From the IMG/VR virus record IMGVR_UViG_3300023257_001119, positions 1 to 20,412 of that record: a stretch of DNA of 20,412 bases; one strand, written 5' to 3'. The DNA is from a virus. Both the position numbers and the translations under genes were made by a program. Below, in pieces: positions 1,085-19,741 of the stretch. The notes under the pieces are model-generated. The model was given only the letters and a program-made list of their open reading frames with translations. It made no database searches and was not told the origin of the DNA. Every line of letters begins with the position of its first letter. Within the stretch, counting starts at the first letter, position 1.

Positions 1085-1212
1085 CACTAAGTATTGTATT
1101 GAAGTTGCCAAATGTTAATTTATATAATGAGATGTATCAATTGACTAGTTTCATTGAGGCTTTGGCGATTAAGTACGACGGATATTTTAAGATAAATCTA
1201 AACGATGATTAA
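1081..1212 (+). CDS. 43-residue hypothetical protein
   Basis: A short frame, MTLSIVLKLPNVNLYNEMYQ and on to KINLNDD, runs from ATG 1081 to TAA 1210-1212. Its ATGA (1081-1084) overlaps the stop of the frameshifted upstream gene, and its last 8 bases overlap the start of the dehydrogenase-like gene at 1205. This double coupling is the same junction style as elsewhere in the window and is the main evidence that it is real. Codon use (TTG, AAT, TAT, ATT) fits the neighbours. The sequence suggests a short strand followed by a helix (YNEMYQLTSFIEALAIKY). No family is recognised. Confidence 0.55.
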   Translation: MTLSIVLKLPNVNLYNEMYQLTSFIEALAIKYDGYFKINLNDD

Positions 1213-1975
1213 GGTATTAGGAGGGGGAGAGGTAGGTAGTAGTATTTACGATCTTATACTAGAGGCCGGGAAAGATGTATTCCTAGAGGACTTGGAGTAC
1301 GTGATGTACAAGGGCAAGAAGTACGGGGAACATAGTGTAATGACGGGGGATATTACAGGATTTGGACGCACAGACATCCTGCATGTTTGTATACCTTATA
1401 GTGATAAGTTTGTAGAGATCGTTCTTGACAGTATAAAAGAAGAAACGGAATTAGTAATAATTCATAGTACAGTTAAGTCTGGAACTACAGAGGAGATAAA
1501 CAGGAGAAAGTGTAGAAGCGTTTGTGTACACAGTCCTGTAAGAGGAATACATCCTAATTTGGTAGAGAGTTTAAAGACTTTTGATAAGTTTGTTGGGACA
1601 GATGACGTGGAGTTATTTGTAAAGGCAAAGAAACACTTAAACGAAATCGGTATTCCTGTTGCAAACGGGGGGGGAAGTAGAAATACAGAATTAGCAAAGA
1701 TAATGAGTACGACCTATTATGGTTGGAATATTATTTTTGAGAAAGAGATGAAGAAGTTGTGTGATAAAGAGGGGGTAGATTTTGATATGGCTTATACAGA
1801 CTGGAATAACTCTTACAATAGTGGCTACATAAGACTAGGGGGAATGGATCACGTAGTTAGACCTGTGTTAAGGGACACGGAGGGTAAAATAGGCGGCCAT
1901 TGCATAACGCCAAATTGTAAATTAATAGATACGTTTCTAACAAGAACTATATTAGCGAGAGATGAAACATTTTAA
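1205..1975 (+). CDS. Minimal UDP-glucose/GDP-mannose dehydrogenase-like protein
   Basis: The 256-residue product has an N-terminal Rossmann glycine motif, LGGGEVG (G6, G8, G11), then IIHSTVKSGTT (85-94) and CVHSPVRGIHPNL (107-119). The helical region NTELAKIMSTTYYGWNIIFE (from 160) corresponds to the dimerisation helix of UDP-sugar dehydrogenases. GKIGGHCI (228-235) matches the GGxC motif that carries the catalytic cysteine (here C233). The family normally exceeds 400 residues; here the protein stops just after the catalytic cysteine and lacks the C-terminal UDP-binding domain. Family members make UDP-uronic acids or aminouronic acids with NAD; whether this short form does so is unknown. It overlaps the preceding 43-codon gene by 8 bases and begins a sugar-modification cassette. 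The TAA at 1973 looks premature: the same frame continues to 2035. Confidence 0.78.
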   Translation: MIKVLGGGEVGSSIYDLILEAGKDVFLEDLEYVMYKGKKYGEHSVMTGDITGFGRTDILHVCIPYSDKFVEIVLDSIKEETELVIIHSTVKSGTTEEINRRKCRSVCVHSPVRGIHPNLVESLKTFDKFVGTDDVELFVKAKKHLNEIGIPVANGGGSRNTELAKIMSTTYYGWNIIFEKEMKKLCDKEGVDFDMAYTDWNNSYNSGYIRLGGMDHVVRPVLRDTEGKIGGHCITPNCKLIDTFLTRTILARDETF

Positions 1976-2035
1976 TGGCTGGAATATTTGGACGGCAAGC
2001 CTTATGGAACCGTTTATGTAGGAGAAAGAATATGA
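1976..2035 (+). other. In-frame tail of the dehydrogenase-like gene beyond its TAA
   Basis: After the TAA at 1973-1975 the same frame reads WLEYLDGKPYGTVYVGERI and stops at TGA 2033-2035. That TGA overlaps the ATG at 2032 of the glycosyltransferase in an ATGA junction, as at most other junctions here. The peptide looks like authentic protein, which suggests the original gene encoded 276 residues and acquired a nonsense change. CAA to TAA, a single C-to-T change, would do it. Alternatively the 256-residue form is the natural product. Confidence 0.5.
2020..2024 (+). promoter_or_regulatory. Shine-Dalgarno AGGAG deciding the GT4 start
   Basis: AGGAG ends 7 bases before ATG 2032 (MRTVAALQAW). The longer alternative start at ATG 1975 has no comparable site, and its extra 19 residues are an out-of-frame reading of the dehydrogenase tail. 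The start at 2032 is therefore preferred. Confidence 0.7.
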
Positions 2036-2868
2036 GAACAGTAGCAGCATTACAAGCATGGAACAATTTCAGTGCATATTATGCAGAACAACTAGGGAAC
2101 TATTTAGAAGATTATGATTTTACAATCACATATAATCAAAAGAGAGACTATTTAGATCAGTTTGATATCATCTGGTCATTCTTTCCTACTCGACATCCTA
2201 ATGGTCTGGAACATAAACTAGTAAAGACTTTCTGGGAACCCCATGAGATGGGGTATAAACTAGGTAAGGTCAACGTTGCATGTTCTAAGTATTCGCATAA
2301 CATGTTAATAAATAAGGATGAGAATGCAATTCTAGCTCCCCTAGGTTTTAATCCCGAACACTTTTACCCGTCCCGTATTACGGAAGGGAAACTAAAGGTT
2401 GGATGGTGTGGTTCTTACAAGAATCCTAGGAAGCAATTTGAAAAATTGAAGGAAGTGGTAGATGACATAGAGGGAGTGGAATTTGTCCCTAACTGTGTAA
2501 CCATGGACAAAGGCACAATACAGGGCAACTTCGAAATGAATGAGATGGTGGATTACTATAAGACTATAGAAGTTTATGTGTGTGCGTCAGCCTCTGAGGG
2601 ATTTGGACTTCCTATTATGGAATCGATGGCTTGTGGTAAGCCCGTAGTATCATTTCCTGTAGGCATAGTACCAGATATACATGAGAGAAATCCAAAGGCT
2701 ATCAGGATGGTAAGTATGAATGATTGGGATGGACTAGTAAAACAGATAGAACTTATCAGAGACGCAGATGTAGACTATGAAGAAACCTGTAAAATTGCCG
2801 AGGCTTCGGATTATTATAACCTTAAAAATATCGCCCCAATATGGAAGAAAGTATTTGACAGAATATGA
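2032..2868 (+). CDS. GT4-family glycosyltransferase
   Basis: From ATG 2032 the product has 278 residues, with a GT-B fold expected. The C-terminal half carries KVGWCGSYKNPRK (122-134), the position of the basic phosphate-binding site, and SASEGFGLPIMESMACGKPV (186-205), which contains the EX7E motif (E189, E197) typical of GT4 retaining enzymes. These transfer a sugar from a nucleotide sugar to a glycan, lipid or protein acceptor. It lies between the dehydrogenase-like gene (ATGA overlap at 2032) and the acyltransferase gene (ATGA overlap at 2865), so it probably acts in the same glycan pathway. It is shorter than bacterial GT4 enzymes (about 350-400 residues), as is common in phages. Donor and acceptor cannot be read from sequence. 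Confidence 0.85.
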   Translation: MRTVAALQAWNNFSAYYAEQLGNYLEDYDFTITYNQKRDYLDQFDIIWSFFPTRHPNGLEHKLVKTFWEPHEMGYKLGKVNVACSKYSHNMLINKDENAILAPLGFNPEHFYPSRITEGKLKVGWCGSYKNPRKQFEKLKEVVDDIEGVEFVPNCVTMDKGTIQGNFEMNEMVDYYKTIEVYVCASASEGFGLPIMESMACGKPVVSFPVGIVPDIHERNPKAIRMVSMNDWDGLVKQIELIRDADVDYEETCKIAEASDYYNLKNIAPIWKKVFDRI

Positions 2869-3254
2869 GACTATTTGAAGAGAGAAAAGGAAGTGCACCA
2901 ATAGTAGGAGAGGTTTTTTGTGAGTCTCATGTAGACCCCACATTCGCAGATTGTCAAGGACAAATAACCATAGGTGACTATGTATTCTGTGGACACGGAG
3001 TAAAGATTCTTACAGGTTATCACGATTACACGGAGACAGGATACCTTAGACAAAGGACTGTACGTAGCAAGCCAGTTACGCTAGAAGACGGTGTATGGGT
3101 AGCCAGTTACGCCATTATCCTTCCCGGAGTTACAATTGGGAAGAATGCAGTGATTGGAGCAGGAAGTGTAGTAACGAAGAATGTACCGGCAGGAGAGTTG
3201 TGGGCAGGCAACCCCGCAAAGTTTATTAAAAAGATAGAAAATGAAGAACTATAG
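2865..3254 (+). CDS. Hexapeptide-repeat (left-handed beta-helix) O-acyltransferase
   Basis: This 129-residue protein has the [LIV]-G-x4 hexapeptide pattern of the maltose/galactoside acetyltransferase group: ITIGDYVFCGHGVKI (34-48), VTLEDGVWVASYAIILPGVT (71-90), IGKNAVIGAGSVVTKNVPAG (91-110), then the family C-terminal signature WAGNPAKFIKKI (113-124). His53 in LTGYHDY lies where the catalytic histidine is expected. Such enzymes transfer acetyl from acetyl-CoA to a sugar hydroxyl or amine and work as trimers. It overlaps the GT4 gene by ATGA and the next methyltransferase by 14 bases, which places it in a glycan-decoration operon. The sugar acceptor is unknown. Confidence 0.88.
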   Translation: MRLFEERKGSAPIVGEVFCESHVDPTFADCQGQITIGDYVFCGHGVKILTGYHDYTETGYLRQRTVRSKPVTLEDGVWVASYAIILPGVTIGKNAVIGAGSVVTKNVPAGELWAGNPAKFIKKIENEEL

Positions 3255-4284
3255 AACAATAGATATTGATAAATGGCAGTTTGAGACCACAGGGGTTCAT
3301 ACAGGCATAATGAGGATCGATCTCTCTAAATGGGGATATGAGCCTAGGGGAGACTACGAACTATGCTTAAAGGTCTTTAGAGACGATTACAAGCCCTTAG
3401 AAGAGTTTATGTGGAAGCACACGAACCTAATGGATGCAACCATAATCCAGAACATCCTTCACGAAGAGGGATTTGCCCCTAGGGTTTATGACCTAGTAAA
3501 GGTGATGACACCTGTTGGGATTCATTGGGGACAGATAGTAGAGTATCTACCAGATTCCGAGAGAGGAGCCTTCTCGTCCAAGGAAAAGGGGGAAGAGATT
3601 AAAAGGGTAATGAAGAAGAATGGGATAGGAATTGTTTCCATAGACCCTAATCCGAAACACAAGTACGTAGATAAAATGGTGGATATGTCTCAACTTTATT
3701 TGGTTGACGACATTTATAAGAACGATTTGATAGAACGTTTTACAAAAGATGCTATTTGGGGTTCTAACCCAAAGCCCTATCAGGGGATTAAAGAGTTGGG
3801 TATCGAGGGGCAAAGGACTCTAGGACAGAGACTAATTGCTTACGATTTTGATTCGGTAGACTTTAGGGGTAAAACCGTAATAGACTTTGGTTGTTCAGGG
3901 GGGGAGTTAAGCAGAGAGGCTGTGGACAGGGGAGCCAAATATTGCGTTGGGATAGATCTTCCAAGGGTGGCTAATGTAACAAGAGAGATGAACAGACTCT
4001 TGGGTTATTTTAACATAGACGTAATAGGGGGAGACTTTAGTTGTAAGAAAGAAATTCCGGACGTAGGTCACTACGACATAGCGTTTTACATGAGTACTCA
4101 ACAGTTAGGTTTTCCAGAGTACTTAAAGGATAGGGTAGACATATTATATTTAGAAGGACATAGCGGAGACCACAGAGAGACCTATGAAGACAGACTTAAA
4201 AAGATGTTTAATAAAGTCGAGTTTCTAGGAGGGTCGAATGACCACTCGGTACGTCCAGTTTTTAGGGCAAGCAATGGGACGTAG
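3241..4284 (+). CDS. SAM-dependent methyltransferase with an N-terminal kinase-like domain
   Basis: The C-terminal half (about 186-347) is a class I methyltransferase: GQRTLGQRLIAYDFDSVDF leads into motif I, TVIDFGCSGGE (212-222), with the acidic ribose-binding residue in VGIDL (D239), a motif like GGDF (263-266), and the ending NDHSVRPVFRA seen in similar phage enzymes. The first 165 residues look like a degenerate protein-kinase fold: LCLKVFR (41-47) could be the lysine strand, MDATIIQNILHEEGFAPRVY (64-83) the N-lobe helix, and IGIVSIDPNPKHKYVDK (129-145) a remnant of the catalytic and metal-binding loops. The kinase relation is inference from pattern. The sugar-cassette context suggests methylation of a glycan or its carrier. 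Its stop overlaps the next methyltransferase. Confidence 0.8.
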   Translation: MKNYRTIDIDKWQFETTGVHTGIMRIDLSKWGYEPRGDYELCLKVFRDDYKPLEEFMWKHTNLMDATIIQNILHEEGFAPRVYDLVKVMTPVGIHWGQIVEYLPDSERGAFSSKEKGEEIKRVMKKNGIGIVSIDPNPKHKYVDKMVDMSQLYLVDDIYKNDLIERFTKDAIWGSNPKPYQGIKELGIEGQRTLGQRLIAYDFDSVDFRGKTVIDFGCSGGELSREAVDRGAKYCVGIDLPRVANVTREMNRLLGYFNIDVIGGDFSCKKEIPDVGHYDIAFYMSTQQLGFPEYLKDRVDILYLEGHSGDHRETYEDRLKKMFNKVEFLGGSNDHSVRPVFRASNGT

Positions 4285-4645
4285 AATAGCGGCATATTAT
4301 TTAGCAAGGGGTTTTATTGACGCTGGGGACAGGGTACTAGACATAGATTGTGGTTCCGGAGAAGGAGCGGTTATTATTGCCGACAGGGCTTTTCAGGTTC
4401 TAGGGGTTAGTAAAGACATAACGGATGCCATCAGATTTGAGATTAAGGGTTTTATAGAATTTGTAATGTCCGTCCCTAAAAAACAGATGGATGTTGCCAT
4501 TGCCTTTGGTGAATGGGAACCCGAAGACATTTTAAATATAACTAAACGTTTGATTACAAACAGAGAAATTAATTTTGATGGATGGGTAGAAGTCTGTAGA
4601 TTTAATCAAGAGACACCCATAATAATTTACGATAAAGAACAATGA
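4238..4645 (+). CDS. Short class I SAM-dependent methyltransferase
   Basis: The 135-residue product contains motif I, RVLDIDCGSGEGAVIIA (32-48), and a following GVSKD that replaces the usual [GV]-[VI]-[DE] strand, so the ribose-binding acid is unclear. It is much shorter than stand-alone methyltransferases (usually over 200 residues) and may be a reduced or inactive form, or a partner of the preceding methyltransferase. ATG 4238 has a strong AGGAGG five bases upstream but lies 47 bases inside the previous gene. ATG 4274 (MGRRIAAYYLARGF), with AGGG six bases upstream, is a good alternative. It ends in an ATGA overlap with the next gene. The target is unknown. Confidence 0.72.
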   Translation: MTTRYVQFLGQAMGRRIAAYYLARGFIDAGDRVLDIDCGSGEGAVIIADRAFQVLGVSKDITDAIRFEIKGFIEFVMSVPKKQMDVAIAFGEWEPEDILNITKRLITNREINFDGWVEVCRFNQETPIIIYDKEQ

Positions 4646-9010: not shown

Positions 9011-9312
9011 AGGATATAAAAAAGGACTTAACAAAATACGACAAAAAGGCTTTACAGCAATTTGTACGGCTTGCAGAAAGCCCTTTATGGGATCCTGTAC
9101 TAGAATGGATTGATGAATACATGAAGCATCAAGCCACAAACTCATTGAAGTTAGATAGTACAAGTCCAGACCTCTCGCCACTACACGCCCAATATAAGGG
9201 AAGGGTGCTTAGTGTTAAAAGATTGAGAGATCTTGTCCAGAACTCAGCAGACATAATAGACCAGTCTTCCAAGAAGGCTAAAGGCCAAGTAAAGGAGAAA
9301 AATCTTTACTAG
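9007..9312 (+). CDS. Small helical protein between portal and scaffold genes
   Basis: This 101-residue basic protein is coupled to the portal gene by an ATGA overlap. It is predicted helical: DLTKYDKKALQQFVRLAESP, LWDPVLEWIDEYMKHQATNS, then VKRLRDLVQNSADIIDQSSK and a lysine-rich end. I recognise no named family. Small proteins at this position in phage head operons are often unknown virion or morphogenesis factors, so a role in head assembly is inferred from position only. The 98 bases that follow it hold no further gene. Confidence 0.7.
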   Translation: MKDIKKDLTKYDKKALQQFVRLAESPLWDPVLEWIDEYMKHQATNSLKLDSTSPDLSPLHAQYKGRVLSVKRLRDLVQNSADIIDQSSKKAKGQVKEKNLY

Positions 9313-9410
9313 TTGCATTTCAGAAAACAAACCCCTATTTTTAAAAACGATAATATATTAGATCGGGATAACCAACAGGCCCCTAGGTAATATGATACAG
9401 GGATAATCTT

Positions 9411-10223: not shown

Positions 10224-10240
10224 ATTAGAAATATAAAGCT

Positions 10241-10789
10241 ATGGCAAGGTTTGAATTTAGAAAACATTTGCTCGGAGCAATAAACACAGTCACATTACCA
10301 TTTACAATCGCAAATTCAGTTACGGTTACTAAAGGTGGAGCAGTTTACATCGATGGCGATGGATATGCAATCCCTTGTACAGCAGGTTCGCTTGTTGCAG
10401 GTATCGTAATGGCAATTACAGATAAAAATGGTATTGACTTAGGAAACACAAGTGAGACATTGGACGGTACATATACCGCACAATCTGGCTCAACCAATGG
10501 AAGCTACTTATCAGCAGATGATAACGAAACTGTCCTAAAAATTACAGTTCACGTAGCATTAGACCCTTATGCAATGTATAAAAACGATGCAGATGGAAGT
10601 CTATCGCAAGGAGATGTATTGCAATTTGGTAACTTGATTAGTGCTTATCAGTTAGATGCCACGGATTTTGATTCCCCAACGGGTGGTCAATTTCAATGTA
10701 TGGCACTTGACCCTGATTCCGAGAGTGATGATTCAATGGGACTATTCCGCATTGCGGAGTCACAATTGTTCCCTTACGCACAACGATAA
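10241..10789 (+). CDS. Probable head decoration or capsid-associated protein
   Basis: This 182-residue beta-rich protein sits immediately before the major capsid gene. The first half (INTVTLPFTIANSVTVTKGG, AVYIDGDGYAIPCTAGSLVA, GIVMAITDKNG) resembles capsid decoration proteins of the lambda gpD/Shp type, which have short strands and many small residues. The second half is acidic, rich in aspartate and serine (LDPDSESDDSMG), and ends RIAESQLFPYAQR. Such proteins bind the mature capsid surface and stabilise it. The assignment rests on position and composition; a minor capsid or head-fibre protein is possible. No signal peptide is seen. The Shine-Dalgarno site is weak (AGAAAT region upstream). 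Confidence 0.6.
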   Translation: MARFEFRKHLLGAINTVTLPFTIANSVTVTKGGAVYIDGDGYAIPCTAGSLVAGIVMAITDKNGIDLGNTSETLDGTYTAQSGSTNGSYLSADDNETVLKITVHVALDPYAMYKNDADGSLSQGDVLQFGNLISAYQLDATDFDSPTGGQFQCMALDPDSESDDSMGLFRIAESQLFPYAQR

Positions 10790-10806
10790 ATTAGTAGAAA
10801 AGATTA

Positions 10807-11730
10807 ATGGCAAGGAGAAATGATTTTGGAGATTTATTAGAACCAGGATTTAGAAAGATTTTCGATGATAAATTCAGCGAAATTCCTTTACAATTCCCAA
10901 GTGTGTTCACAATAAATTCTTCAAGCAAGCAGGATGAGAAAGATTCTGCCGTATCTGGATTTGGATTGTTAACGGAAACTGCTGAGCAGGATCCAATAAC
11001 GTACGAAGATCCATTACAAATGTTCAATGTTTCTTATGTTCATAAGAAATATACGAAGGGCTTCAAGGTCTCGAGAGAGATGCAAGAAGATGACCAATAT
11101 ATGGTTATGAACAAGAAACCTGCAGCTCTTGGTAGAGCTTCAAGGAGAACTGCCGAATATTATGCGGCACAAAACTTCAATAATGCGTTCAATACCGACT
11201 ATACAGGCGGAGACTCGAAGCCTTTGGCTTCAACATCTCATCCACGTGCAGACGGGGGTACAGCTCAAAGTAATGCTAATGCATCAGGAATTGTTCTCAA
11301 TGAGACCAACCTAGAGACAGCGGCACTTGCAATGAGGGGACAAAAAGATGATAAAGGAATGAAGATTATGGCAAAAGCCAAAACAATCGTTGTTCCACCT
11401 GCTCTTGAAAAAGAAGCAAAAATTATTGTCGGATCAAACCTAAGATCGGGACAAACGTCAACAGGAAACGTTAATGATCTAAATGTCTATAAAGGACAAT
11501 ACGAGATCAAAGTTCTTGACTATTTATCAAGTGAAACCGCATGGTTCTTGATGGATGGGGCTCTTGATGAGTTGAATTGGTTCTGGAGAATAAAACCGGA
11601 ATTTAAGCAAGGTAATGCATTCGATAATGACGAAGCATTGTATAAGGTTCGAGAAAGATTTTCAAGCGGCTGGTCCGATTGGAGAGGTTTCTGGGGATCG
11701 AAAGGTGACGCTGGTTCTTATACCGACTAA
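10807..11730 (+). CDS. Major capsid protein (HK97 fold)
   Basis: The 307-residue product follows the scaffold-like and decoration-like genes. The N-terminal arm (FGDLLEPGFRKIFDDKF, ending LQFPSVFTINSSSKQDEKDS) is followed by VSYVHKKYTKGFKVSREMQE, a core strand-helix pattern, then RTAEYYAAQNFNNAFNTDYT with TSHPRADGGTAQSN, features I associate with phage major capsid proteins of the Mu gpT-like group. Later segments LNETNLETAALAMRGQKDDK and IVVPPALEKEAKIIVGSN match the HK97-fold P-domain helix and strand (the V-P-P-x-L-E pattern is typical). WFWRIKPEFKQGNAFDNDEA and RERFSSGWSDWRGFWG close the A-domain. No protease gene is seen, so maturation cleavage is unlikely in this window. A GC hairpin follows directly. 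Confidence 0.9.
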   Translation: MARRNDFGDLLEPGFRKIFDDKFSEIPLQFPSVFTINSSSKQDEKDSAVSGFGLLTETAEQDPITYEDPLQMFNVSYVHKKYTKGFKVSREMQEDDQYMVMNKKPAALGRASRRTAEYYAAQNFNNAFNTDYTGGDSKPLASTSHPRADGGTAQSNANASGIVLNETNLETAALAMRGQKDDKGMKIMAKAKTIVVPPALEKEAKIIVGSNLRSGQTSTGNVNDLNVYKGQYEIKVLDYLSSETAWFLMDGALDELNWFWRIKPEFKQGNAFDNDEALYKVRERFSSGWSDWRGFWGSKGDAGSYTD

Positions 11731-11741
11731 ACCTACAGTTT

Positions 11742-11772
11742 GGGCCGGGGCAACCCGGCTCTTAGCTTATTT
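11742..11772 (+). terminator. GC hairpin with GCAA tetraloop after the capsid gene
   Basis: GCCGGG (11744-11749), GCAA (11750-11753) and CCCGGC (11754-11759) form a 6-bp stem, extended by one G-U and one G-C pair, with a stable GNRA tetraloop. The downstream stretch TCTTAGCTTATTTT is only moderately T-rich. It may be a partial intrinsic terminator that lowers transcription after the highly expressed capsid gene, or a 3' structure that stabilises the capsid mRNA. Confidence 0.6.
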
Positions 11773-11785
11773 TAACTAGAGGATT

Positions 11786-12295
11786 ATGGCAAAGAAAGAA
11801 GTAAAGAAAAAAGAAGCGGTGGTAGAAGAGGAAAAGATTCCTGGTACTACTTCAACAAGTACACCAACAACAACTAGTACTTTAACGAGCAAAACTACAT
11901 TACCAAATAAAACAGAAGAGATAATTTCGGTAAACGTTACAACTAATGAGGAAGAGGTTGTAGAACATAAGATTCCAAAGGGGGTCTTTATTTTAAAAAA
12001 TCCCGCAAAAGGTAATATTGATATTGCTTACGAGGGGAAAATCTATAAACTAGGCTCAGGAGAAGAGAGACTGTTTAATGAAGAGGTTGGATCTTTCTTG
12101 AAGGAAAGATACCCATTCTTGAAAAGATCTGAATTAACAGCAAAGAATATGGATATAATTGCGGAGGCAGAATCCCAAGTATCTCCATTGACATTTAAGA
12201 AACAAAAGAAAAGGGGAACATTTGATCCCAACATATACGACAAGAAGCTAGGGCTTACGGGTAAAGGTGTTGAGGACGATAACTTAAAAGGATAA
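11786..12295 (+). CDS. Head-completion-like protein with a short Thr/Ser linker
   Basis: This 169-residue protein starts at ATG 11786 behind AGAGG. Residues 1-18 are lysine/glutamate-rich. A Thr/Ser linker of about 24 residues follows (TTSTSTPTTTSTLTSKTT). Residues 60-115 form a small domain, IPKGVFILKNPAKGNIDIAY then EGKIYKLGSGEERLFNEEVG and FLKERYPFLKRSE, which resembles short proteins often encoded after the major capsid gene (the K-x-Y-x-L-x-x-G-E-E-R-x-[VF]-x-x-x-V and RYPFL patterns). The basic C-terminal tail is probably disordered. It is the first of three neighbouring late proteins with Thr/Ser stretches. A role in head completion or connection is inferred from position. Confidence 0.65.
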   Translation: MAKKEVKKKEAVVEEEKIPGTTSTSTPTTTSTLTSKTTLPNKTEEIISVNVTTNEEEVVEHKIPKGVFILKNPAKGNIDIAYEGKIYKLGSGEERLFNEEVGSFLKERYPFLKRSELTAKNMDIIAEAESQVSPLTFKKQKKRGTFDPNIYDKKLGLTGKGVEDDNLKG

Positions 12296-12325
12296 GAGAA
12301 ATCCTCTAAACTCTAAAGCGATATT

Positions 12326-12739
12326 ATGATTCAACACATAGAAGACCAAAACGGACATGTTATGCCAGTTGATGGTTACACGGATCCAACAACAGGCAAG
12401 ACTTATGCCTATGCTCATCACATGACAACGACGAGTACAAGCACAAGTACAAGTACATCAACAAGTACATCAACAAGTACAACTACAACGTCCAGCAGTA
12501 CGACAACAAGTACAAGTACTTCAACAAGTACAACTACAAGTACGACAACTACATCGAGTAGTACAAGTACTTCAACAAGTACAAGTACTTCAACAAGTAC
12601 AACTACAAGTACGACAACTACATCGAGTAGTACAAGTACTTCAACAAGTACAACTACAAGTACTACTACAAGTACGTCAACAAGTACAAGTACATCAACA
12701 ACTACAACGAGTTCTAGCACCACAACTACACTTCTTTAG
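12326..12739 (+). CDS. Short protein made mainly of a Thr/Ser tract; possible N-terminal half of a split gene
   Basis: The 137-residue product has about 33 ordinary residues (MIQHIEDQNGHVMPVDGYTD, then PTTGKTYAYAHHM) followed by about 100 residues that are almost only threonine and serine, with recurring TTTTSSST blocks, and ends TTTTLL just before TAG. In the fibre-like gene at 18056 each Thr/Ser tract ends in TTTL or TTTTL and then leads into a folded domain; here the same boundary leads straight to a stop. This suggests that the downstream domain is missing or now lies beyond the inserted cassette. Such tracts could be flexible stalks or glycan acceptors. The N-terminal segment is not recognised; it may be a virion-anchoring peptide. 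Confidence 0.6.
   Translation: MIQHIEDQNGHVMPVDGYTDPTTGKTYAYAHHMTTTSTSTSTSTSTSTSTSTTTTSSSTTTSTSTSTSTTTSTTTTSSSTSTSTSTSTSTSTTTSTTTTSSSTSTSTSTTTSTTTSTSTSTSTSTTTTSSSTTTTLL
12425..12730 (+). repeat. Thr/Ser-coding repeat tract 1 (about 306 bp)
   Basis: The tract is built from ACAAGT, ACTTCA, ACAACT and similar six-base units coding Thr-Ser and Thr-Thr. All four Thr codons and several Ser codons are used. It keeps an open frame on the sense strand and also yields a long Val/Leu/Asp-rich shadow frame on the other strand. Confidence 0.9.
12511..12648 (+). repeat. Perfect 69-bp tandem duplication inside tract 1
   Basis: Bases 12511-12579 and 12580-12648 are identical, checked base by base. Identity at offset 69 extends a few bases further on both sides. 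The unit encodes 23 residues, so gain or loss keeps the frame. Perfect identity suggests a recent event. Confidence 0.92.
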
Positions 12740-12748
12740 TCAATCCTC

Positions 12749-12777
12749 TTGACATTAGTTTCGATGTGTGTTAGTAT
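12749..12777 (+). promoter_or_regulatory. Sigma70-like promoter
   Basis: A perfect TTGACA (12749-12754) is followed after 17 bases by TAGTAT (12772-12777), which matches TATAAT at 4 of 6 positions. It begins 10 bases after the stop of the Thr/Ser gene. Transcription would start near 12784 and meet the terminator at 12799-12830 almost at once, giving a leader of roughly 40-45 bases. Confidence 0.5.
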
Positions 12778-12798
12778 AAAACAACTCTAATAGTAAAT

Positions 12799-12830
12799 AA
12801 ACCTTACCTTCGGGTAGGGTTTTTATTTTT
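12799..12830 (+). terminator. Intrinsic terminator with TTCG tetraloop
   Basis: ACCTTACC (12801-12808) pairs with GGTAGGGT (12813-12820) over 8 bp with one G-U pair around a TTCG loop. Flanking AA/TT pairs extend the stem, and the tail is TTTTATTTTT. It is a textbook rho-independent terminator. It ends the late head transcript just before the glycosyltransferase genes and could also attenuate transcription from the promoter at 12749. Confidence 0.9.
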
Positions 12831-12840
12831 AATAAGTATC

Positions 12841-14199
12841 ATGAAAAAAGTTGCAATTTTAACCTCCTTTACATCAGCGGATTGTGCTTACAGTCTTAAC
12901 AATGTAGTGCAGGATCAGATAAAGATGTTGGTAGATAATGGTTATAAGCCCATAGTAATTGCTAGTGAGGGGTTTAAACCCATTGAGAACTATGCATTAC
13001 CAGAAGTCGAGATGAGGTTCGTCCCCTCGATTACAAGATCTAATAACGTAAGTGTGGATGAGAAGTTTGATGAGGACGTAAAGAAAACATACGAAGCTCT
13101 AAAAGAAGCCTTGAAGGGTATTGATGTTATATTCACACACGATTTAATTTACCAACCTGCGGAATTAAAAACCCATGTAGCGTGTAGAAGGATTGCTGCT
13201 GAATCACATCACCGATGGTTACACTGGATACATTCAGCAACCACTCCACATATCTTATTAGATAAATTAAATCTTTCCGGGGAGACAAAAGAGATCTATA
13301 CTCCATTCTTAAAGAATAAGTTCCCGAATAGTTTTCTTGTTTTTCCAAACGCATATTCAAGAAGAAGGATTGCGACCAATTTCGGATACGAACAAGACGA
13401 GGTGAAGACCGTTAACCACCCAACAGACATCTTCACATATATGGACATGCACCCAATGACACAGAAGTTAGCAGAGGGTAAAGATCTTTTATCTGCTGAT
13501 ATGATTTGTGTATATCCAATCAGACTTGATCGGGGAAAGAACGTAGAGGTTCCGATTGAAATATTAGCACAAGCCAAGAAAAAGGGGATGTCTGTTCGCA
13601 TGATTGTTGTGGACTTTCATTCAACAGGAGGAGATAAAATAACCTATAGGGAATCTTTGAAAAGATTAGGAGCCGATAAAGGCTTAAATGATAACGAATT
13701 GACATTTACAAGTGAGTTTGATGAATCGCTGAAAACACGATGTCCCCGAAAGATGGTTAGAGACCTTTTCCTTCTTTCTAACGTATTTATAATGTCTTCT
13801 AAAAGCGAATCATATTCATTAATTACGCAAGAGGCTGCAATGTGTGGGAACATCATTCTTATCAACAGAGACTTTCCCCCATTCATTGATGTGTTTGGGG
13901 ATGCGCCTTATCAGGGACAATTCTCCTCTAACATGGATGCTTTAACAGGGATGGATGGAGAGACGACAACAAAGTTTAATGACAAAGATGCTTACATGTC
14001 GGATATGGCAGGGAGGCTAATCTATGAAATCAAGAACAATCGAGTATTACGAATGAAGGATAGGACAAGAAAGTTTAGGTCTTTAGATTATATCTTCAAA
14101 CACCAATTACAGCCTTTGATAGACTTTCAACCAAGGGGAATTGCAAAAGAAGCAGAGGAAGTAAAAGAAAATATATATCAAGAAGCGGAATTACTATGA
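12841..14199 (+). CDS. GT4-family glycosyltransferase, first gene of the cassette
   Basis: This 452-residue enzyme has a GT-B layout. The N-terminal domain begins MKKVAILTSFTSADCAYSL with a VVQDQIKMLVDNGYKPIVIA helix-strand and IDVIFTHDL. The C-terminal domain has CVYPIRLDRGKN (about 222-233), the basic donor-phosphate site, and MSSKSESYSLITQEAAMCGN (about 318-337) with an EX7E motif. It is close to full length for GT4. It has no signal peptide or membrane anchor, so it is a cytoplasmic or peripheral enzyme. ATG 12841 lies 10 bases after the terminator tail with no strong Shine-Dalgarno site. The next gene overlaps it by ATGA. Donor and acceptor are unknown; the adjacent Thr/Ser virion proteins are plausible acceptors. 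Confidence 0.85.
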   Translation: MKKVAILTSFTSADCAYSLNNVVQDQIKMLVDNGYKPIVIASEGFKPIENYALPEVEMRFVPSITRSNNVSVDEKFDEDVKKTYEALKEALKGIDVIFTHDLIYQPAELKTHVACRRIAAESHHRWLHWIHSATTPHILLDKLNLSGETKEIYTPFLKNKFPNSFLVFPNAYSRRRIATNFGYEQDEVKTVNHPTDIFTYMDMHPMTQKLAEGKDLLSADMICVYPIRLDRGKNVEVPIEILAQAKKKGMSVRMIVVDFHSTGGDKITYRESLKRLGADKGLNDNELTFTSEFDESLKTRCPRKMVRDLFLLSNVFIMSSKSESYSLITQEAAMCGNIILINRDFPPFIDVFGDAPYQGQFSSNMDALTGMDGETTTKFNDKDAYMSDMAGRLIYEIKNNRVLRMKDRTRKFRSLDYIFKHQLQPLIDFQPRGIAKEAEEVKENIYQEAELL

Positions 14200-14966
14200 G
14201 GAATCGATCAACTACGTTCTCGATAATTACACCAGTACGTAATAGACAAGATACCATCAGGAGATGTATGGAGTCGGTCTTTGTACAAACGTATGCTAAG
14301 AAGAACTACGAACATATCATTGTGGACGATGCATCGAAGGACGACACCATAGAGCTCGTTAAAAGCGTAAGTTCTATGCAGTCATGTAGGGAACCTATTA
14401 AACTAATCGAACAACCAGAACACTTAGAGAGAGCCATTTGTCGAAATAACGGAATGTTGGAAGCAAAACATGATTGGATTTGTTGGCTAGATTCAGACGA
14501 TGCTTATACGCAAAGATATTTAGAAACGGTAGCACGAGCAATCAAAGAGAATCCAGAAATACTATGCTTTAACTTTGGGTCGATTGTTCACCACAATGAC
14601 AATCACCATAGTACACGACCCACGTTTTGCCCAAAGATTATAAAGGACGAGGGGAATGGGTTGGGTTGTCACGAGGAGTTTAAGAGCGGTAAGATTGGAA
14701 CTGGATCCTTTGTCTTTCACAAGTCTGTGTTAGATACTATAGGAATGCTTCCTGAGGTAAGTAGCCCATACGCATTGAAAGACGAAGCCATAAAGGAATT
14801 TGGGAAGAACTGGAATGAGAGTAAAGATATATTTGATTTGTATTTAGAGAAAGGTGTAACACTGGGTAATCCTTGGGGAGATGATTATTACATGTTTTAC
14901 AAGATTACAAGAAAGTTTATAAGTAAACCGTTGGGTATTAATTTGTATTACCATAATGTAAGATAG
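14196..14966 (+). CDS. GT2-family glycosyltransferase (GT-A fold)
   Basis: This 256-residue protein carries the GT2 signature from its start: TFSIITPVRNRQDTIRRCME (7-26), HIIVDDASKDDT (40-51) for nucleotide binding, ERAICRNNGMLEA (78-90), and WICWLDSDDAY (94-104) with the DSDD metal/UDP-sugar motif. The second half has an acceptor-side region (FKSGKIGTGSFVFHKS), an insert ALKDEAIKEFGKNWNESKDI and WGDDYYMFYKI, a likely catalytic aspartate region. No transmembrane helices are present, so it is a soluble inverting transferase. It is translationally coupled to the preceding GT4 gene by ATGA. Specificity is unknown. Confidence 0.88.
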   Translation: MRNRSTTFSIITPVRNRQDTIRRCMESVFVQTYAKKNYEHIIVDDASKDDTIELVKSVSSMQSCREPIKLIEQPEHLERAICRNNGMLEAKHDWICWLDSDDAYTQRYLETVARAIKENPEILCFNFGSIVHHNDNHHSTRPTFCPKIIKDEGNGLGCHEEFKSGKIGTGSFVFHKSVLDTIGMLPEVSSPYALKDEAIKEFGKNWNESKDIFDLYLEKGVTLGNPWGDDYYMFYKITRKFISKPLGINLYYHNVR

Positions 14967-14996
14967 AACATTTAAAGTTAATTTAAAATTAAAAAG

Positions 14997-15788
14997 ATGG
15001 AAGACAAAAAAGAACAAACTTGGCAAGAAAAAGAAAAAGAAGCTAGAGAAAAGATAGAGGCGGATCGAAAAATAGATATTGTCATTACGTCATACAATCG
15101 TAGACAGTTTACAGAGACATGTATACGAGAGATTTATAATAGAACAACAACACCACATAGGGTTATTGTTGTGGACAATGGTTCAACAGACGACAGTGTA
15201 TCATACCTACAGGCTTTAAAACACACAGGACACATAGACGTTCTAATCCTTCTGGATAGAAACCTAGGATTAGAAAGGGCAAAGAACATTGGGCTGTCAG
15301 TTGTGAATTCAACATGGTATGTAGATACAGATAACGATATTATTGTTGAGAGCCCTAGAGATGGTACAGATTGGTTAGCAAAGCTAGTGGACTTGATTGC
15401 AAGGAATACAGAGTTTGGGGGGATTGCATGTAGACCACAGGTAATGGTGGGAGAACCAGGTAATGCTTTTGATAAAGTTGATGAGGTAAGAGAAGGTAAC
15501 GCAGGAGCACACGCCCGTATAATGCACACAGACACGATAAGAGATGTTGGGGGATGGAATAACCACTTTACAAACAGAAGCGAGGAGAAGGAGATCAGGG
15601 GCCGTCTAGGCAAGGTTCAGTTGAAGACAGGATATGCAAAGAATATAAGATGCATTCATTTGTTTGGAGAGAACTGGGGATATAAAGGAGTGGAACATTT
15701 CCATAGAGATATATGGCCACCAGTACAAAGTTACGAATGGAACAATGTTAAAATTAATTGGGAGACCTGTAGAAAAGAAGATGAATGA
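14997..15788 (+). CDS. GT2-family glycosyltransferase with a charged N-terminal extension
   Basis: The 263-residue product starts with about 24 charged helical residues (EDKKEQTWQEKEKEAREKIE) and then the GT2 domain: IDIVITSYNRRQFTETCIRE (26-45), RVIVVDNGSTDDS (55-67), DRNLGLERAKNIGL (87-100), and TWYVDTDNDIIVE (106-118) with DTDND in the DxD position. GGIACRPQVM and VGGWNNHFTNRSEEKEIRGR follow in the acceptor domain, where E-x-E/ED pairs often provide the base. It is soluble. A 30-base AT-rich gap separates it from the previous gene. Its stop codon overlaps the ATG of the broken small gene at 15781. Substrate unknown. Confidence 0.88.
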   Translation: MEDKKEQTWQEKEKEAREKIEADRKIDIVITSYNRRQFTETCIREIYNRTTTPHRVIVVDNGSTDDSVSYLQALKHTGHIDVLILLDRNLGLERAKNIGLSVVNSTWYVDTDNDIIVESPRDGTDWLAKLVDLIARNTEFGGIACRPQVMVGEPGNAFDKVDEVREGNAGAHARIMHTDTIRDVGGWNNHFTNRSEEKEIRGRLGKVQLKTGYAKNIRCIHLFGENWGYKGVEHFHRDIWPPVQSYEWNNVKINWETCRKEDE

Positions 15789-15918
15789 AATAGTAGAAAA
15801 GGTTAAGCTGTTTATTGTATAGCTGCTTATTGGGCCGGGTTATGTATTATTTAAGTTATCAAAACTATTGTTCCCCTTGGAAACGGAAGAATGTTTAGAA
15901 ATCTTTTACGATCAATGA
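15781..15918 (+). pseudogene. Small membrane-protein-like gene interrupted by an in-frame TAG
   Basis: From ATG 15781, which overlaps the stop of the GT2 gene, the frame reads MNEIVEKVKLFIV, then TAG (15820-15822), then LLIGPGYVLFKLSKLLFP and LETEECLEIFYDQ, and stops at TGA 15916-15918. That stop overlaps ATG 15915 of the next GT4 gene as ATGA. Both junctions and the hydrophobic continuity across the TAG (FIV-LLIGPGYVLF) suggest one gene of about 45 codons encoding a short membrane peptide. TGG to TAG would be a single change. It may be a decayed gene, a strain variant or a sequencing error. The function is unknown; a small membrane partner of the glycosyltransferases is only a guess. Confidence 0.5.
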
Positions 15919-16886
15919 AGATATATATTGTAGACAGTAATGGTTTCAAGTTCTCGAATATTCTCGCTAGAGGATGGACAAAGATGGGACATGAAGTTAG
16001 AAGCTTTCACTGTCTTCATATGCCATTATACGATTGGGCAGACATTGTCTACTTTGACTTTGCAGACAACAATGTAAAATGGTTATCGAAATATGCTAAC
16101 GGGACTCAGTTGAAAGACAACATTCCATACGACCCAAAGAAAACACATGTGGTAAGATGTGTAGACATAGAGGCTTATGCAGGACATCCGGGGCCAGTAG
16201 ATTGGACTAAGTTTGATGCTTGTATTTTTATATCCGAACACATACAGAAGTATTGTCAAGATAAATTCCCTAGCTTAAAGGGTGTTAAACAACATCTAGT
16301 AAGGTGTGGAGTTGAGACAGACAAGTTTCATATTATAGATCGAGAACCAACTGATACTTTTGATATAGGATTTCTTGGAAGGCTATGGATAGGAAAGAAC
16401 TTTCCGGGAGTATTGGATGTTTTATATGAATGCAAGAAGCGTTGCGATAAGGTTAAGTTACATGTAAGAGCCGATGGTTATGACCCTGCATGGTGGGAAG
16501 CTTTCTGTAAGCACAGGATAAAAGCACTTGGATTAGAGGACAATATAGTTTATTATGATTATATAGAGGATCTCACAGATTGGTATAATAAACTAGACTA
16601 CGTTATAGTACCTTCTTTTAAGGAAGCCTTCTCTTATGCAGCAGGTGAAGCAGCCGCATGTGGAGTACAACCTTTGATATTAAATTCACCAGAGATGGAT
16701 AAGACATGGCCAGAGAGTTGGAGATATAACACACCCTCAGAAGCCGCAGCAATAATTATGGGAACAGACTATGATAGGAAAAGGGTTCGCCAGTTCATCT
16801 TGGACAATTACAGTGCAGAGAAACATATATTAGAAACAAGTAAAATATGCAAGATACCAACGAAAGATTTAAAAGAAAAACAATAA
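15915..16886 (+). CDS. GT4-family glycosyltransferase
   Basis: From ATG 15915 the protein has 323 residues and starts MKIYIVDSNGFKFSNILARG, a normal GT-B N-terminus. ATG 15891 would add 8 residues that are an out-of-frame reading of the preceding small gene, although a GGAAG lies before it. Key regions are WTKFDACIFISEHIQKY, VRCGVETDKFH, DIGFLGRLWIGKNFPGVLDV with the basic phosphate-binding site, and VPSFKEAFSYAAGEAAACGV containing the EX7E motif. The overall layout matches GT4 enzymes that use nucleotide-activated sugars. It overlaps the next GT2 gene by 40 bases, so the two are probably expressed as a unit. Acceptor unknown. Confidence 0.85.
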   Translation: MKIYIVDSNGFKFSNILARGWTKMGHEVRSFHCLHMPLYDWADIVYFDFADNNVKWLSKYANGTQLKDNIPYDPKKTHVVRCVDIEAYAGHPGPVDWTKFDACIFISEHIQKYCQDKFPSLKGVKQHLVRCGVETDKFHIIDREPTDTFDIGFLGRLWIGKNFPGVLDVLYECKKRCDKVKLHVRADGYDPAWWEAFCKHRIKALGLEDNIVYYDYIEDLTDWYNKLDYVIVPSFKEAFSYAAGEAAACGVQPLILNSPEMDKTWPESWRYNTPSEAAAIIMGTDYDRKRVRQFILDNYSAEKHILETSKICKIPTKDLKEKQ

Positions 16887-17809
16887 ACACCTTTGTCATT
16901 CCCGTCATTCGAGATATATTCATTGAGGACTGTCTGGAATCTTTATGGTCACATTGTGATATGGAGCAGCATAGAGTCATTCTAATTGACCAAACAAAGG
17001 ATGGAATATACGATAGAATCAGGGATAAAGTACATGCATATGTAAGACCACATAGAAACCTAGGATTTGCCGCCGCAATGAATATGGGTATTAGAATGGC
17101 AACAACCAAGTATGTGACGTGTGCAAATGACGATATAGTCTTTATTGACGAAAGATGGTGGGATGGTATCCTTGAAACCTTTGATAGACATCCAGACATG
17201 GGAGGAGTTAACCCATTTTCCATATGGGAGACTGGATGGGGTTATGGTGCAAAGCCAGATAATCCAGAACGCATAGCAGAGGTTCTAAAGATATTTGGAA
17301 AGCGGGGAAGAACCTTTCAAAGAGGGGGACAGGTATTCTTTTCTTATTTAGAAGATGAAAAGAATATTACTAAAGAGGATATTGACTTTATCAAAACCGT
17401 AAGACCTGGTATGATAGACGGAATTGCCACATGGTGTACGACATTTAAAAGAGAGTCGTTGGCACTGAAAGGGTTATTCGACGAACGATTTTATCCGGGT
17501 GGGGGAGAGGACTATGACATAGGGGGAAGGTTTTATGATAAAGACTATCCGTATGTAGACGCAGGAAGACTTAGGGTTTGTGCAACGTCTAATAGTTGGG
17601 TACACCATTTGTGGTCACAATCAAGATACATGGAAAAGAAGGACGCAATGGAGGGTTATCCAATTGAAGCGGAGCGAAGATGGAATAAGCTTGGGGACTG
17701 TTGGCCAGAAAAAGAAGACAAAGAAGATAGACACAAAAACCATTGTTTTAATGGTCATCCAACTCTTTCAAGAGGTAGGGTGGGTAATATTTATACAGTA
17801 GACTTATGA
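16847..17809 (+). CDS. GT2-family glycosyltransferase
   Basis: This 320-residue protein has a GT2 core: NTFVIPVIRDIFIEDCLESL (14-33), RVILIDQTKDG (43-53), PHRNLGFAAAMNMGIRMATT (68-87), and YVTCANDDIVFID (89-101), where NDD takes the DxD position. RPGMIDGIATWCTTFKRESL and FYPGGGEDYDIGGRFYD supply an acceptor-domain ED pair. The C-terminus is rich in His, Trp and Lys (NKLGDCWPEKEDKEDRHKNH). It most resembles rhamnosyl/galactofuranosyl-type GT2 enzymes in layout, without firm specificity. It overlaps the preceding GT4 gene by 40 bases and couples to the small helical gene at 17806 by ATGA. Confidence 0.85.
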   Translation: MQDTNERFKRKTINTFVIPVIRDIFIEDCLESLWSHCDMEQHRVILIDQTKDGIYDRIRDKVHAYVRPHRNLGFAAAMNMGIRMATTKYVTCANDDIVFIDERWWDGILETFDRHPDMGGVNPFSIWETGWGYGAKPDNPERIAEVLKIFGKRGRTFQRGGQVFFSYLEDEKNITKEDIDFIKTVRPGMIDGIATWCTTFKRESLALKGLFDERFYPGGGEDYDIGGRFYDKDYPYVDAGRLRVCATSNSWVHHLWSQSRYMEKKDAMEGYPIEAERRWNKLGDCWPEKEDKEDRHKNHCFNGHPTLSRGRVGNIYTVDL

Positions 17810-17994
17810 AAAAACAAATAGAGAATGCGATCGAGAATATTAATATCTTAAACAAGGCTTTAGGCGATATGGTTGCAACGAGAAAAAATCATGAAATAGT
17901 AACGATTGCAGTTATTCAAATCTTAAATACACTTAACGACTGTAAGGGAGAGTTCGATACGCATACTGCCCCAGAGACTGGCGTGGAGAAGTAA
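17806..17994 (+). CDS. Small helical protein at the end of the glycosyltransferase cassette
   Basis: This 62-residue protein starts at ATG 17806, overlapping the stop of the GT2 gene as ATGA. Residues 1-48 have a heptad-like pattern (IENAIENINILNKALGDMVA and HEIVTIAVIQILNTLND), consistent with a helical hairpin or coiled coil. The end is acidic (GEFDTHTAPETGVEK). No family is recognised. It lies last before the terminator at 18025 and may be a chaperone-like partner of the transferases, but this is only positional. Confidence 0.65.
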   Translation: MKKQIENAIENINILNKALGDMVATRKNHEIVTIAVIQILNTLNDCKGEFDTHTAPETGVEK

Positions 17995-18024
17995 CTGGAA
18001 TTTCAGAACATAAACAGATAATTT

Positions 18025-18054
18025 ATCCCTATATATAAACGTATAGGGATTTTT
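18025..18054 (+). terminator. Intrinsic terminator closing the cassette
   Basis: ATCCCTATA (18025-18033) and TATAGGGAT (18042-18050) form a perfect 9-bp stem with an 8-base loop and a T run (18050-18054). It ends transcription of the glycosyltransferase operon. Its 3' arm contains the AGGGA that serves as the only visible ribosome-binding site for the next gene. Confidence 0.88.
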
Positions 18055-18058
18055 ATTG
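18045..18058 (+). promoter_or_regulatory. AGGGA ribosome-binding site and TTG start hidden in the terminator
   Basis: AGGGA (18045-18049) lies 6 bases before TTG 18056, the first possible start after an in-frame TAG at 18044-18046. AGGGA is part of the terminator's 3' arm, so it would be base-paired in any transcript that reads through from upstream. No promoter is visible between the terminator and the gene. Confidence 0.45.
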
Positions 18059-19741
18059 ACGACAACAAGTACCACAACAACGTCGACAACTACGACCAGT
18101 TCAAGCACAACTACTACAAGTACTTCGACAACCACAACTAGTACGTCAACCACGACCACGTTACCATTACACTTTAATGAACGGGATGGGCAGTTCTATT
18201 CTTCTGGAATACTTTTGAGAGATTCGGACGATAAGATTGCATTTAGATTTACCCCTTGGCAAACAACACGGATAAGTGAGTTATATCTTTATTTGTCAAA
18301 AAGTGGAACTTCACCAACATTTAGGTTTGGGATACAATCCGATAATGCAGGAGAACCATCGGGATCTTTTCTAGCTAGTGCAACCGGTACAATCAGCTCT
18401 TCGGTGGGGGGTTGGAAGAAACTTGTCCTTAGCGAATATGCAGCATTAACAGCCGGCGCAACATACTGGATTGTAATGGAACATTCTAGTGGAACTATAG
18501 ACGGTTCAAACTATGGTGTTATGGGGATGGCTAATAGTAGCGACTCCACATGGGTTTTTAACGATATAGAGGGAGACCTTGCAGTATTTAGTTATAACGG
18601 CTCTACTTGGTCAGAAGAAAGCTCTCATACCCCCCTCTTCGGGACGGAAACATTGATTGGGCAACCCATAATTAGATTCGACCTCTATCCAACATACAGC
18701 ATAAATGACTCGCAGTATGTTAAGTATGCAGAGAAGGTTAAATTTGCAGAAAACAAAACAGTTGCAAGCATCAGGTTTAGCATACGAAAAGAAACGGAGG
18801 GTGTTGACGATGATCTATACTATGAGATAAGAGAAGAGGACGACACGCTTTTAAGAAGCGGAATTGTCGTAAAACACACAATGGCCATTTGGGGCAACAA
18901 TATGTGGGCAGAGGCTAACCTCAGCAGCCCGTTAACCCTGATAGCAGACACCTACTATAGGCTGATATTGTATTCTGAATCCTCGATTGGGAATGAATGG
19001 TATATCAATTATGCAGAGGTTTCAATAAGTGGGGAAGAGTCTCCACAACAGGAGAATGCGGGATATGGGGGACAGCATTGTTTTTTAGATAAATATGTGG
19101 ATAGCGCATGGGGAGGATTAGGGGGAGATGCCGTTGAGAAAGATTTATTGTTCGGTATTGAGGCAACGAGCACGAGCACAAGCACTTCAACAAGTACGAG
19201 TAGCTCAACAAGTACGACTACTTCGACAAGTACAAGCACCTCTACTTCAACTAGTACTTCTACCACAACTACTAGTAGTTCAACAAGTACTTCTACTTCG
19301 ACCACAACAACAAGTAGCTCTACCTCAACATCAACTAGTACGTCAACCAGTACGACCACTACATCGAGTAGTACCAGTACGACCACGAGTACTTCAACGA
19401 GTACAACAACAAGTACGTCAACAAGTACTTCTACCACAACAACACTTGCGTTTATATTACAGGAAACGGGAGATGTTATTTTACAAGAAACAGGAGATAA
19501 GTTGGCACTTGAACAATTGGGCACAACTACCTCTACAAGTACAACTACTACATCAAGTTCTACCAGCACAACAACGTCAACTAGCACAACCACAACATCT
19601 AGTTCAACCACAACAAGTAGTTCAACCAGTACATCAACATCAACAAGTACCTCTACTACCACACTCTCAATTGAGTTTGGTAGTTTAGGGATAGATATTA
19701 TACAGGACAAATTTACATATAACTTAGACACAAAAAACTAA
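18056..19741 (+). CDS. Fibre-like virion protein with two beta-sandwich domains and three Thr/Ser tracts
   Basis: The 561-residue product opens directly with a Thr/Ser tract (2-35). Domain 1 (about 36-210) has RISELYLYLSKSGTSPTFRF, SDNAGEPSGSFLASATGTIS, and GATYWIVMEHSSG, the pattern of a carbohydrate-binding-like beta-sandwich (x-G-x-P-S-G-x-x-L-A, then L-x-x-G-x-x-Y-W-I-V). Domain 2 (about 211-370) repeats it: KTVASIRFSIRKETEGVDDD and LTLIADTYYRLILYSESS. Tract 2 (371-463), a small repeat ILQETGDV-ILQETGDK, tract 3 (490-536) and a 25-residue tail follow. It is probably a tail fibre or surface adhesin. TTG 18056 is the only plausible start, which is odd: a gene beginning with a linker suggests a lost N-terminus. 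Confidence 0.72.
   Translation: MTTTSTTTTSTTTTSSSTTTTSTSTTTTSTSTTTTLPLHFNERDGQFYSSGILLRDSDDKIAFRFTPWQTTRISELYLYLSKSGTSPTFRFGIQSDNAGEPSGSFLASATGTISSSVGGWKKLVLSEYAALTAGATYWIVMEHSSGTIDGSNYGVMGMANSSDSTWVFNDIEGDLAVFSYNGSTWSEESSHTPLFGTETLIGQPIIRFDLYPTYSINDSQYVKYAEKVKFAENKTVASIRFSIRKETEGVDDDLYYEIREEDDTLLRSGIVVKHTMAIWGNNMWAEANLSSPLTLIADTYYRLILYSESSIGNEWYINYAEVSISGEESPQQENAGYGGQHCFLDKYVDSAWGGLGGDAVEKDLLFGIEATSTSTSTSTSTSSSTSTTTSTSTSTSTSTSTSTTTTSSSTSTSTSTTTTSSSTSTSTSTSTSTTTTSSSTSTTTSTSTSTTTSTSTSTSTTTTLAFILQETGDVILQETGDKLALEQLGTTTSTSTTTTSSSTSTTTSTSTTTTSSSTTTSSSTSTSTSTSTSTTTLSIEFGSLGIDIIQDKFTYNLDTKN
18059..18160 (+). repeat. Thr/Ser-coding tract 2a (N-terminal in the fibre-like gene)
   Basis: About 34 Thr/Ser codons in TTTTS and TTTTSSS blocks, ending TTTT before LPLHF. 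It is the mate of tract 1 across the glycosyltransferase cassette. Confidence 0.88.
19166..19444 (+). repeat. Thr/Ser-coding tract 2b (middle)
   Basis: About 93 Thr/Ser codons with TTTTSSST blocks, ending TTTT before LAFIL. It shares a 17-base block, ACTACATCGAGTAGTAC, with tract 1, which suggests exchange or common origin. Confidence 0.9.
19454..19501 (+). repeat. Two tandem 24-bp units coding ILQETGDx
   Basis: The frame reads ILQETGDV then ILQETGDK, followed by a third degenerate unit LALEQLG. The two DNA copies differ at several positions, so the repeat is older than the 69-bp duplication. It may form a small beta module between tracts 2b and 2c. Confidence 0.8.
19523..19663 (+). repeat. 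Thr/Ser-coding tract 2c (C-terminal)
   Basis: About 47 Thr/Ser codons with TTTTSSS blocks, ending TTT before LSIEFGSLGIDIIQ, the last 25 residues of the fibre-like protein. Confidence 0.88.

Follow-up and report, generated by a model that had tools for sequence, protein, structure and literature searches.

The window analysed here is the whole of the IMG/VR record IMGVR_UViG_3300023257_001119 (20,412 bases), in which all genes lie on one strand and which, judged from its portal and other head genes, is a fragment of an SU10-like podovirus. It contains two genes for proteins with long, nearly pure threonine/serine (Thr/Ser) tracts and, between them, five glycosyltransferase (GT) genes, the first of which encodes a GT4-type enzyme that we refer to as GTA. 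We propose, at a probability of about two in three, that these genes specify a phage-encoded, cytoplasmic O-glycosylation of tract-bearing virion proteins, with GTA as the likely tract transferase. The strongest new evidence of the analysis is that GTA and tracts occur together in unrelated phage backgrounds; it is joined by the composition of the tracts and by a near absence of membrane proteins from the GT cassettes.

Tract proteins and glycosyltransferases of the window

The genes concerned, with a terminator-like element among them, are as follows.

11786..12295, + strand: small protein with a short Thr/Ser linker (about 11846-11908); no family match
12326..12739, + strand: tract protein 1, 137 aa, 77% Ser/Thr; proposed O-glycan acceptor, with homologues at the equivalent position in relatives
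12841..14199, + strand: GTA, GT4-type glycosyltransferase of GT-B fold; PF00534; E-x7-E (E323/E331); proposed tract transferase
14196..14966, + strand: GT2 glycosyltransferase, DSD motif; PF00535
14997..15788, + strand: GT2 glycosyltransferase, DTD motif; PF00535
15891..16886, + strand: GT4 glycosyltransferase, E-x7-E at residue 245; PF13692/PF00534
16847..17809, + strand: GT2 glycosyltransferase, NDD motif; PF00535
18025..18050, + strand: terminator-like strong hairpin and T-run (z = -4.2), immediately 5′ of the TTG start at 18056
18056..19741, + strand: tract protein 2, 561 aa, TTG start; three Ser/Thr tracts around a DUF4082-like domain

An earlier note on this DNA had described two long-tract genes and one short-linker gene, five GTs between the long-tract genes and a sixth within 1205-4645. 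All three open reading frames were found where it had placed them, and the six GTs all exceed the Pfam curated cut-offs, with catalytic motifs that a sequence test found intact. GTA has the marks of a GT4 enzyme, namely a GT-B fold in its predicted structure (pLDDT 81), a PF00534 match, and the E-x7-E motif, which is invariant across 16 aligned relatives. The closest enzymes among the matches listed by a fold search are the GT4 enzymes MshA, BshA and HepE, at 11–16% identity. A search of GTDB with GTA returned seven loci in metagenome-assembled genomes (MAGs), one of which (L353; L- and G-numbers denote the records and contigs compared in the analysis) looks like a phage cassette. Longer proteins whose C-terminal part is related to GTA are also encoded on bacterial MAG contigs (L354 9698-11380 and L355 9320-11386).

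Tract protein 1 consists of 33 N-terminal residues followed by a C-terminal Ser/Thr tract of about 104 residues (12425-12736). In the tract proteins of relatives a 45–60-residue N-terminal module (consensus P-x-x-P-x-x-G-D-x-Y-x-D-T ... Y-D-G-T-x-W-x-G) precedes a C-terminal Ser/Thr tract with a median length of 49 residues (range 15–164); this module is not clearly visible in the short N-terminus of the 12326 gene product. The module matches PHROG virion structural families and, weakly, Mtd_N, and a fold search returns tailspike, tropism-determinant and trimerisation domains with marginal scores only. It is probably a trimeric module of virion type, and the tract proteins may be carried on the virion. 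Tract protein 2 has its tracts at 18056-18168, 19157-19453 and 19514-19675, and its non-tract part has a weak DUF4082 match (5.7e-6, just under the Pfam cut-off), from which we infer a fibre gene. Its TTG start falls inside a tract and there is no in-frame ATG upstream.

The tracts vary between close relatives. Between the window and L006, 2 of the 17,183 positions in 807-17990 are different, but the third tract of gene 18056 has been rewritten (window 19534-19636), with Ser/Thr retained. In L005, tract 1 is shorter by precisely one 69-bp unit (about window 12585). Mis-assembly of repeats may contribute to this hypervariability. A short tract (TTTSTSSTTSSTTTLP) is also inserted in a protein with virion PHROG matches that is encoded on contig G001 (L360 1884-3407), whose sequence is near-identical to that of the window.

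The composition of the tracts was examined in the interiors of 101 homologous tract proteins, comprising 5,230 residues, and has several striking features. First, Ser and Thr account for 5,182 of these residues (99.1%), where 42% would be expected under random one-base codon changes, and the tracts are therefore not due to chance; the detection thresholds favour Ser/Thr-rich stretches and somewhat inflate the 99%, although they do not explain the lack of Pro and Ala. Second, Ala, Gly, Asn and Pro are common one-step neighbours of the tract codons and yet are nearly excluded (2, 2, 1 and 0 residues, respectively). Third, the two serine codon families are used about equally (1,162 AGY and 1,390 TCN). 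Finally, the tract changes between the close pair L156 and L157 are 26 synonymous, five Ser–Thr and none of any other kind. These patterns indicate selection at the protein level that retains a hydroxyl residue as the codons drift. An O-glycan acceptor needs such selection and a flexible linker does not, which favours the acceptor reading.

Co-occurrence of GTA and tracts, and the surrounding genes

A search with GTA on its own identified 15 records of at least 50 kb that carry GTA and lack the terminase of the window; the only capsid match among them is a weak one in G122, and G160 has a weak terminase match. Ser/Thr-tract DNA is present in 13 of these 15 and in none of nine random contigs of at least 50 kb (Fisher p = 4e-5), with the qualification that the 15 are not fully independent, since L450 and L456 are close. 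In the GTA tree (FastTree; deep nodes are weak) the tract-positive records occupy about eight branches, and the four that were read at the protein level have real tracts, the longest protein having 1,093 aa (61% Ser/Thr). Giant proteins of about 60% Ser/Thr are encoded at L485 2321-5602 (1,093 aa) and L487 2389-5214 (941 aa), in GTA-carrying phages of other lineages. As for controls, there are no genuine tracts in 12 GT-free capsid relatives, and two shorter random contigs have one and three tract matches of dubious nature.

A search with the capsid protein returned the near-identical contigs L005–L007 and further relatives at about 50–67% identity, all of the compared records being fragments. 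In nearly all relatives with downstream sequence, the major capsid gene is followed directly by genes for one to three tract proteins; GTA, sugar dehydrogenase and GT2s come next in the conserved order. Where 8 kb or more follow GTA, a record has three to six GT genes, and a dehydrogenase is present in 27 of 31 such records; the GTs of this family were counted with profiles built for the analysis and cross-checked with Pfam on ten records. The earlier note had proposed a search of related phages for the co-occurrence of tracts and GTs, and the two do go together in the capsid family: where at least 8 kb follow the capsid gene, 30 records have both an acceptor tract and GTs (29 with Ser/Thr tracts and one with a Ser-Pro tract), 15 have neither and none is mixed. 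With at least 5 kb, 37 have both and 23 neither, with one exception (L175). The GT-free relatives are L168, L204 and a lake clade, and GT2 is absent from their whole records too. Apparent Ser tracts in L278, L280 and L282 were rejected as artefacts, being the antisense of acidic scaffold genes.

Several observations weigh against GTA as a tract transferase or against a general link between tracts and GTs. A GTA profile has no sequence match in the PDB at E 0.01, and GTA has no match among 50,697 phage records, which leaves no characterised relative to indicate its acceptor. No tract is seen in two of the long GTA records (L261 and L454). L163 and L173 fall within the Ser/Thr clade and have tracts of Ser-Pro type, other GT2s and, in the available sequence, no GTA, and in L175 and L181 GTA does not adjoin the tracts. 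L175 has tracts and no GT in its available sequence, and its contig stops 6 kb after the capsid gene; it is the sole candidate for the refuting case named by the earlier note, a relative with tracts that lacks all GTs. In the capsid family the tract–GT link has a single origin, the tree requiring a single change in tract presence and two or more in GT presence. The counts are therefore not independent; they appear to reflect co-retention of tracts and GTs rather than repeated co-gain, and their use as independent evidence was rejected (a sign test had one pair). Lastly, 42 of 50 randomly sampled viral contigs with tract-like DNA have no detected GT2, so a tract alone is no sign of glycosylation. 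GT2 is nevertheless enriched among them (8/50 versus 1/50 random contigs, p = 0.03; some of the pattern matches are not in-frame tracts), and the Ser/Thr tract was rejected as a general predictor of GTs. The claim of dedicated acceptors with a glycan-building cassette thus gains from the co-occurrence in the capsid family and in other backgrounds, within the limits set by the single origin and by these GT2-free contigs. Ser-Pro repeat tracts in place of Ser/Thr are located at L163 11559-12251 and L173 9352-9954.

The remaining recognisable genes of the window are a set of sugar genes and the head genes.

1205..1975, + strand: UDP-glucose/GDP-mannose dehydrogenase-like protein; weak Pfam match, below cut-off
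1975..2868, + strand: sixth glycosyltransferase, GT4 type; PF00534/PF13692 above cut-off; E-x7-E at residue 208
2865..3254, + strand: hexapeptide-repeat acyltransferase; Pfam match above cut-off
3241..4284, + strand: methyltransferase-like protein; weak Pfam match, below cut-off
4238..4645, + strand: methyltransferase-like protein; weak Pfam match, below cut-off
5349, + strand: terminase large subunit; family match, head gene
6827, + strand: SU10/P22-type portal; family match, head gene
10807..11730, + strand: major capsid protein, Mu gpT / Phage_capsid_4 type; anchor of the conserved gene order

Small unknown genes are followed by the sugar-gene set (1205-4645), terminase, portal, scaffold-like and capsid genes, the tract gene at 12326-12739, the five GTs and the tract gene at 18056-19741, so that head and GT genes share a strand and a block. 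The placement of tracts and GTs among head and fibre genes therefore holds for the head genes (terminase, portal and capsid), and the fibre part rests on the weak DUF4082 match. Likewise, the sugar genes described at 1205-4645 are secure for the acyltransferase, and the dehydrogenase-like protein and the two methyltransferases match only weakly. Dehydrogenase homologues are directly 3′ of GTA in most relatives; in the window the dehydrogenase is elsewhere, at 1205.

Proposed mechanism and alternative explanations

A predicted membrane segment is present in three of 273 cassette genes from 37 records, as called by a simple hydropathy rule, and none of the three is a GT. Because membrane segments are almost absent, glycosylation would be cytoplasmic rather than dependent on the lipid-linked machinery of surface glycans. 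In the late phase of infection, small phage proteins would be made in which a probably trimeric module of virion type is joined to a C-terminal Ser/Thr tract, and soluble Leloir-type GTs would be expressed from the same late gene block. GTA would most likely attach the first sugar to tract hydroxyls, a role suggested by its constant position beside the tracts and by the way the two occur together. Elongation or branching of the glycan would fall to the GT2s and the remaining GT4 enzymes, and its modification to the products of the dehydrogenase, acyltransferase and methyltransferase genes. The reaction would take place in the cytoplasm, where phage particles are assembled, and the tract arms would form a mucin-like sugar brush on the particle. 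We infer each of four things here: the location of the tract proteins on the virion, their glycosylation, the initiating enzyme and the role of the coat, which may, as the earlier note proposed, affect adsorption, diffusion or immune recognition.

That the GTs instead alter host surface glycans, for superinfection exclusion or receptor change, with the tracts as unrelated flexible linkers or stalks, was the alternative offered by the earlier note. Temperate phages do change host serotype with GTs (PMC12619734), GT cassettes that include genes for sugar dehydrogenases and epimerases are similar to surface-glycan loci, and many phages have Ser/Thr tracts without a detected GT2. However, with membrane proteins so nearly absent, the cassettes provide neither a flippase nor a polymerase nor carrier enzymes of GtrA/GtrB type, their genes are on the late strand with head genes on one side and tail genes on the other, GTA tracks tract presence over unrelated phages, and the tract interiors exclude Pro, Ala, Gly and Asn, which linkers tolerate. 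We therefore consider this explanation unlikely. Glycosylation of hypermodified phage DNA, a T4-like protection from restriction with the tracts again as linkers, is highly improbable. The cassette enzymes are soluble, as such a role would allow, and phage GTs acting on DNA have been described (Pyle et al. 2024, cited in PMC12619734); the GTs, however, are grouped with tract and head genes away from replication genes, and the link between GTA and tracts would be left unexplained. Contig G001, a near-identical record of 43.7 kb that may be incomplete, has a further 22 kb, in which no base-modification gene was recognised among open reading frames read by eye and in part scanned with Pfam and PHROGs; within this scope, that too counts against a DNA substrate.

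It is quite unlikely, too, that the tracts act free of sugar, either as extended hydrophilic stalks or as recombination-promoting repeat DNA that exchanges fibre modules, with a separate role for the GTs. The rewritten third tract of gene 18056 and the missing unit in L005 are what recombining repeats might produce, and in other phages tracts link the domains of long tail proteins. Neither recombination nor a generic stalk, however, needs protein-level selection for Ser/Thr, free synonymous drift or mixed serine codon families, and the co-occurrence of GTA with tracts is again left unexplained. Glycosylation of the tracts is accordingly the reading that we prefer. A broader proposal, on which we are evenly divided, is that GTA marks a new and widespread class of phage O-glycosylation acting on dedicated mucin-like Ser/Thr tracts of fibre- or head-associated proteins, spread over at least eight GTA branches with differing capsids and terminases, in which acceptor type and transferase change together (as in L163 and L173, with Ser-Pro tracts, GT2s and no GTA).

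Comparison with known glycosylation systems

Phage virion glycosylation and the adjacent acceptor–GT pairs of bacterial adhesins are each already known. In the open-access literature searched, we found no dedicated mucin-like acceptor with a GT cassette over several phage lineages, and nothing on phage GTs with threonine-rich, mucin-like or low-complexity proteins. Phage virion glycosylation has so far concerned few isolates and short acceptor regions. If the proposal is correct, a marker enzyme family together with dedicated mucin-like acceptors would allow virion sugar coats to be predicted from metagenomic sequence and tested by co-expression in a laboratory strain, and GTA would represent a candidate family of polypeptide O-glycosyltransferases whose acceptor is simple and of low complexity.

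The O-antigen conversion cassettes of temperate phages (gtrABC) depend on membrane-bound GtrA and GtrB. The GTs described here are likewise phage-encoded, but membrane-bound proteins of GtrA/GtrB type are absent from the cassettes. GTA shares the GT-B fold and E-x7-E motif with MshA, BshA and HepE (CAZy GT4), which act on small molecules or polysaccharide, in contrast to the protein acceptor proposed for GTA. A closer parallel in organisation is provided by the serine-rich repeat (SRR) and SD-repeat adhesins of staphylococci and streptococci, which are glycosylated by GtfA/GtfB, GtfC/GtfD and SdgA/SdgB (PMC5230774). In both cases a low-complexity, Ser-rich acceptor (here a predicted one) is encoded beside its own cytoplasmic GTs, and glycan building is, or would be, sequential. 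The adhesins, however, are exported bacterial cell-wall proteins, whereas these are phage proteins that would be made and assembled in the cytoplasm; no accessory Sec export gene was recognised in the window, without a dedicated test for one. The adhesin systems also have GtfA/GtfB as core transferase, and GTA was rejected as an enzyme of this type, there being no PDB sequence match and the best 50 fold matches listing other GT4 enzymes.

The nearest phage precedent is found in mycobacteriophages, whose virions carry glycans on the C-termini of capsid and tail-tube subunits (Freeman et al. 2023, as cited in PMC12619734). As far as that citing source describes them, the systems differ in that the putative acceptors here are separate proteins with long, near-pure Ser/Thr tracts beside a cassette of five or six GTs. 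They are alike in having phage-encoded GTs, virion-protein C-termini as the acceptors (here predicted) and a proposed role as a shield.

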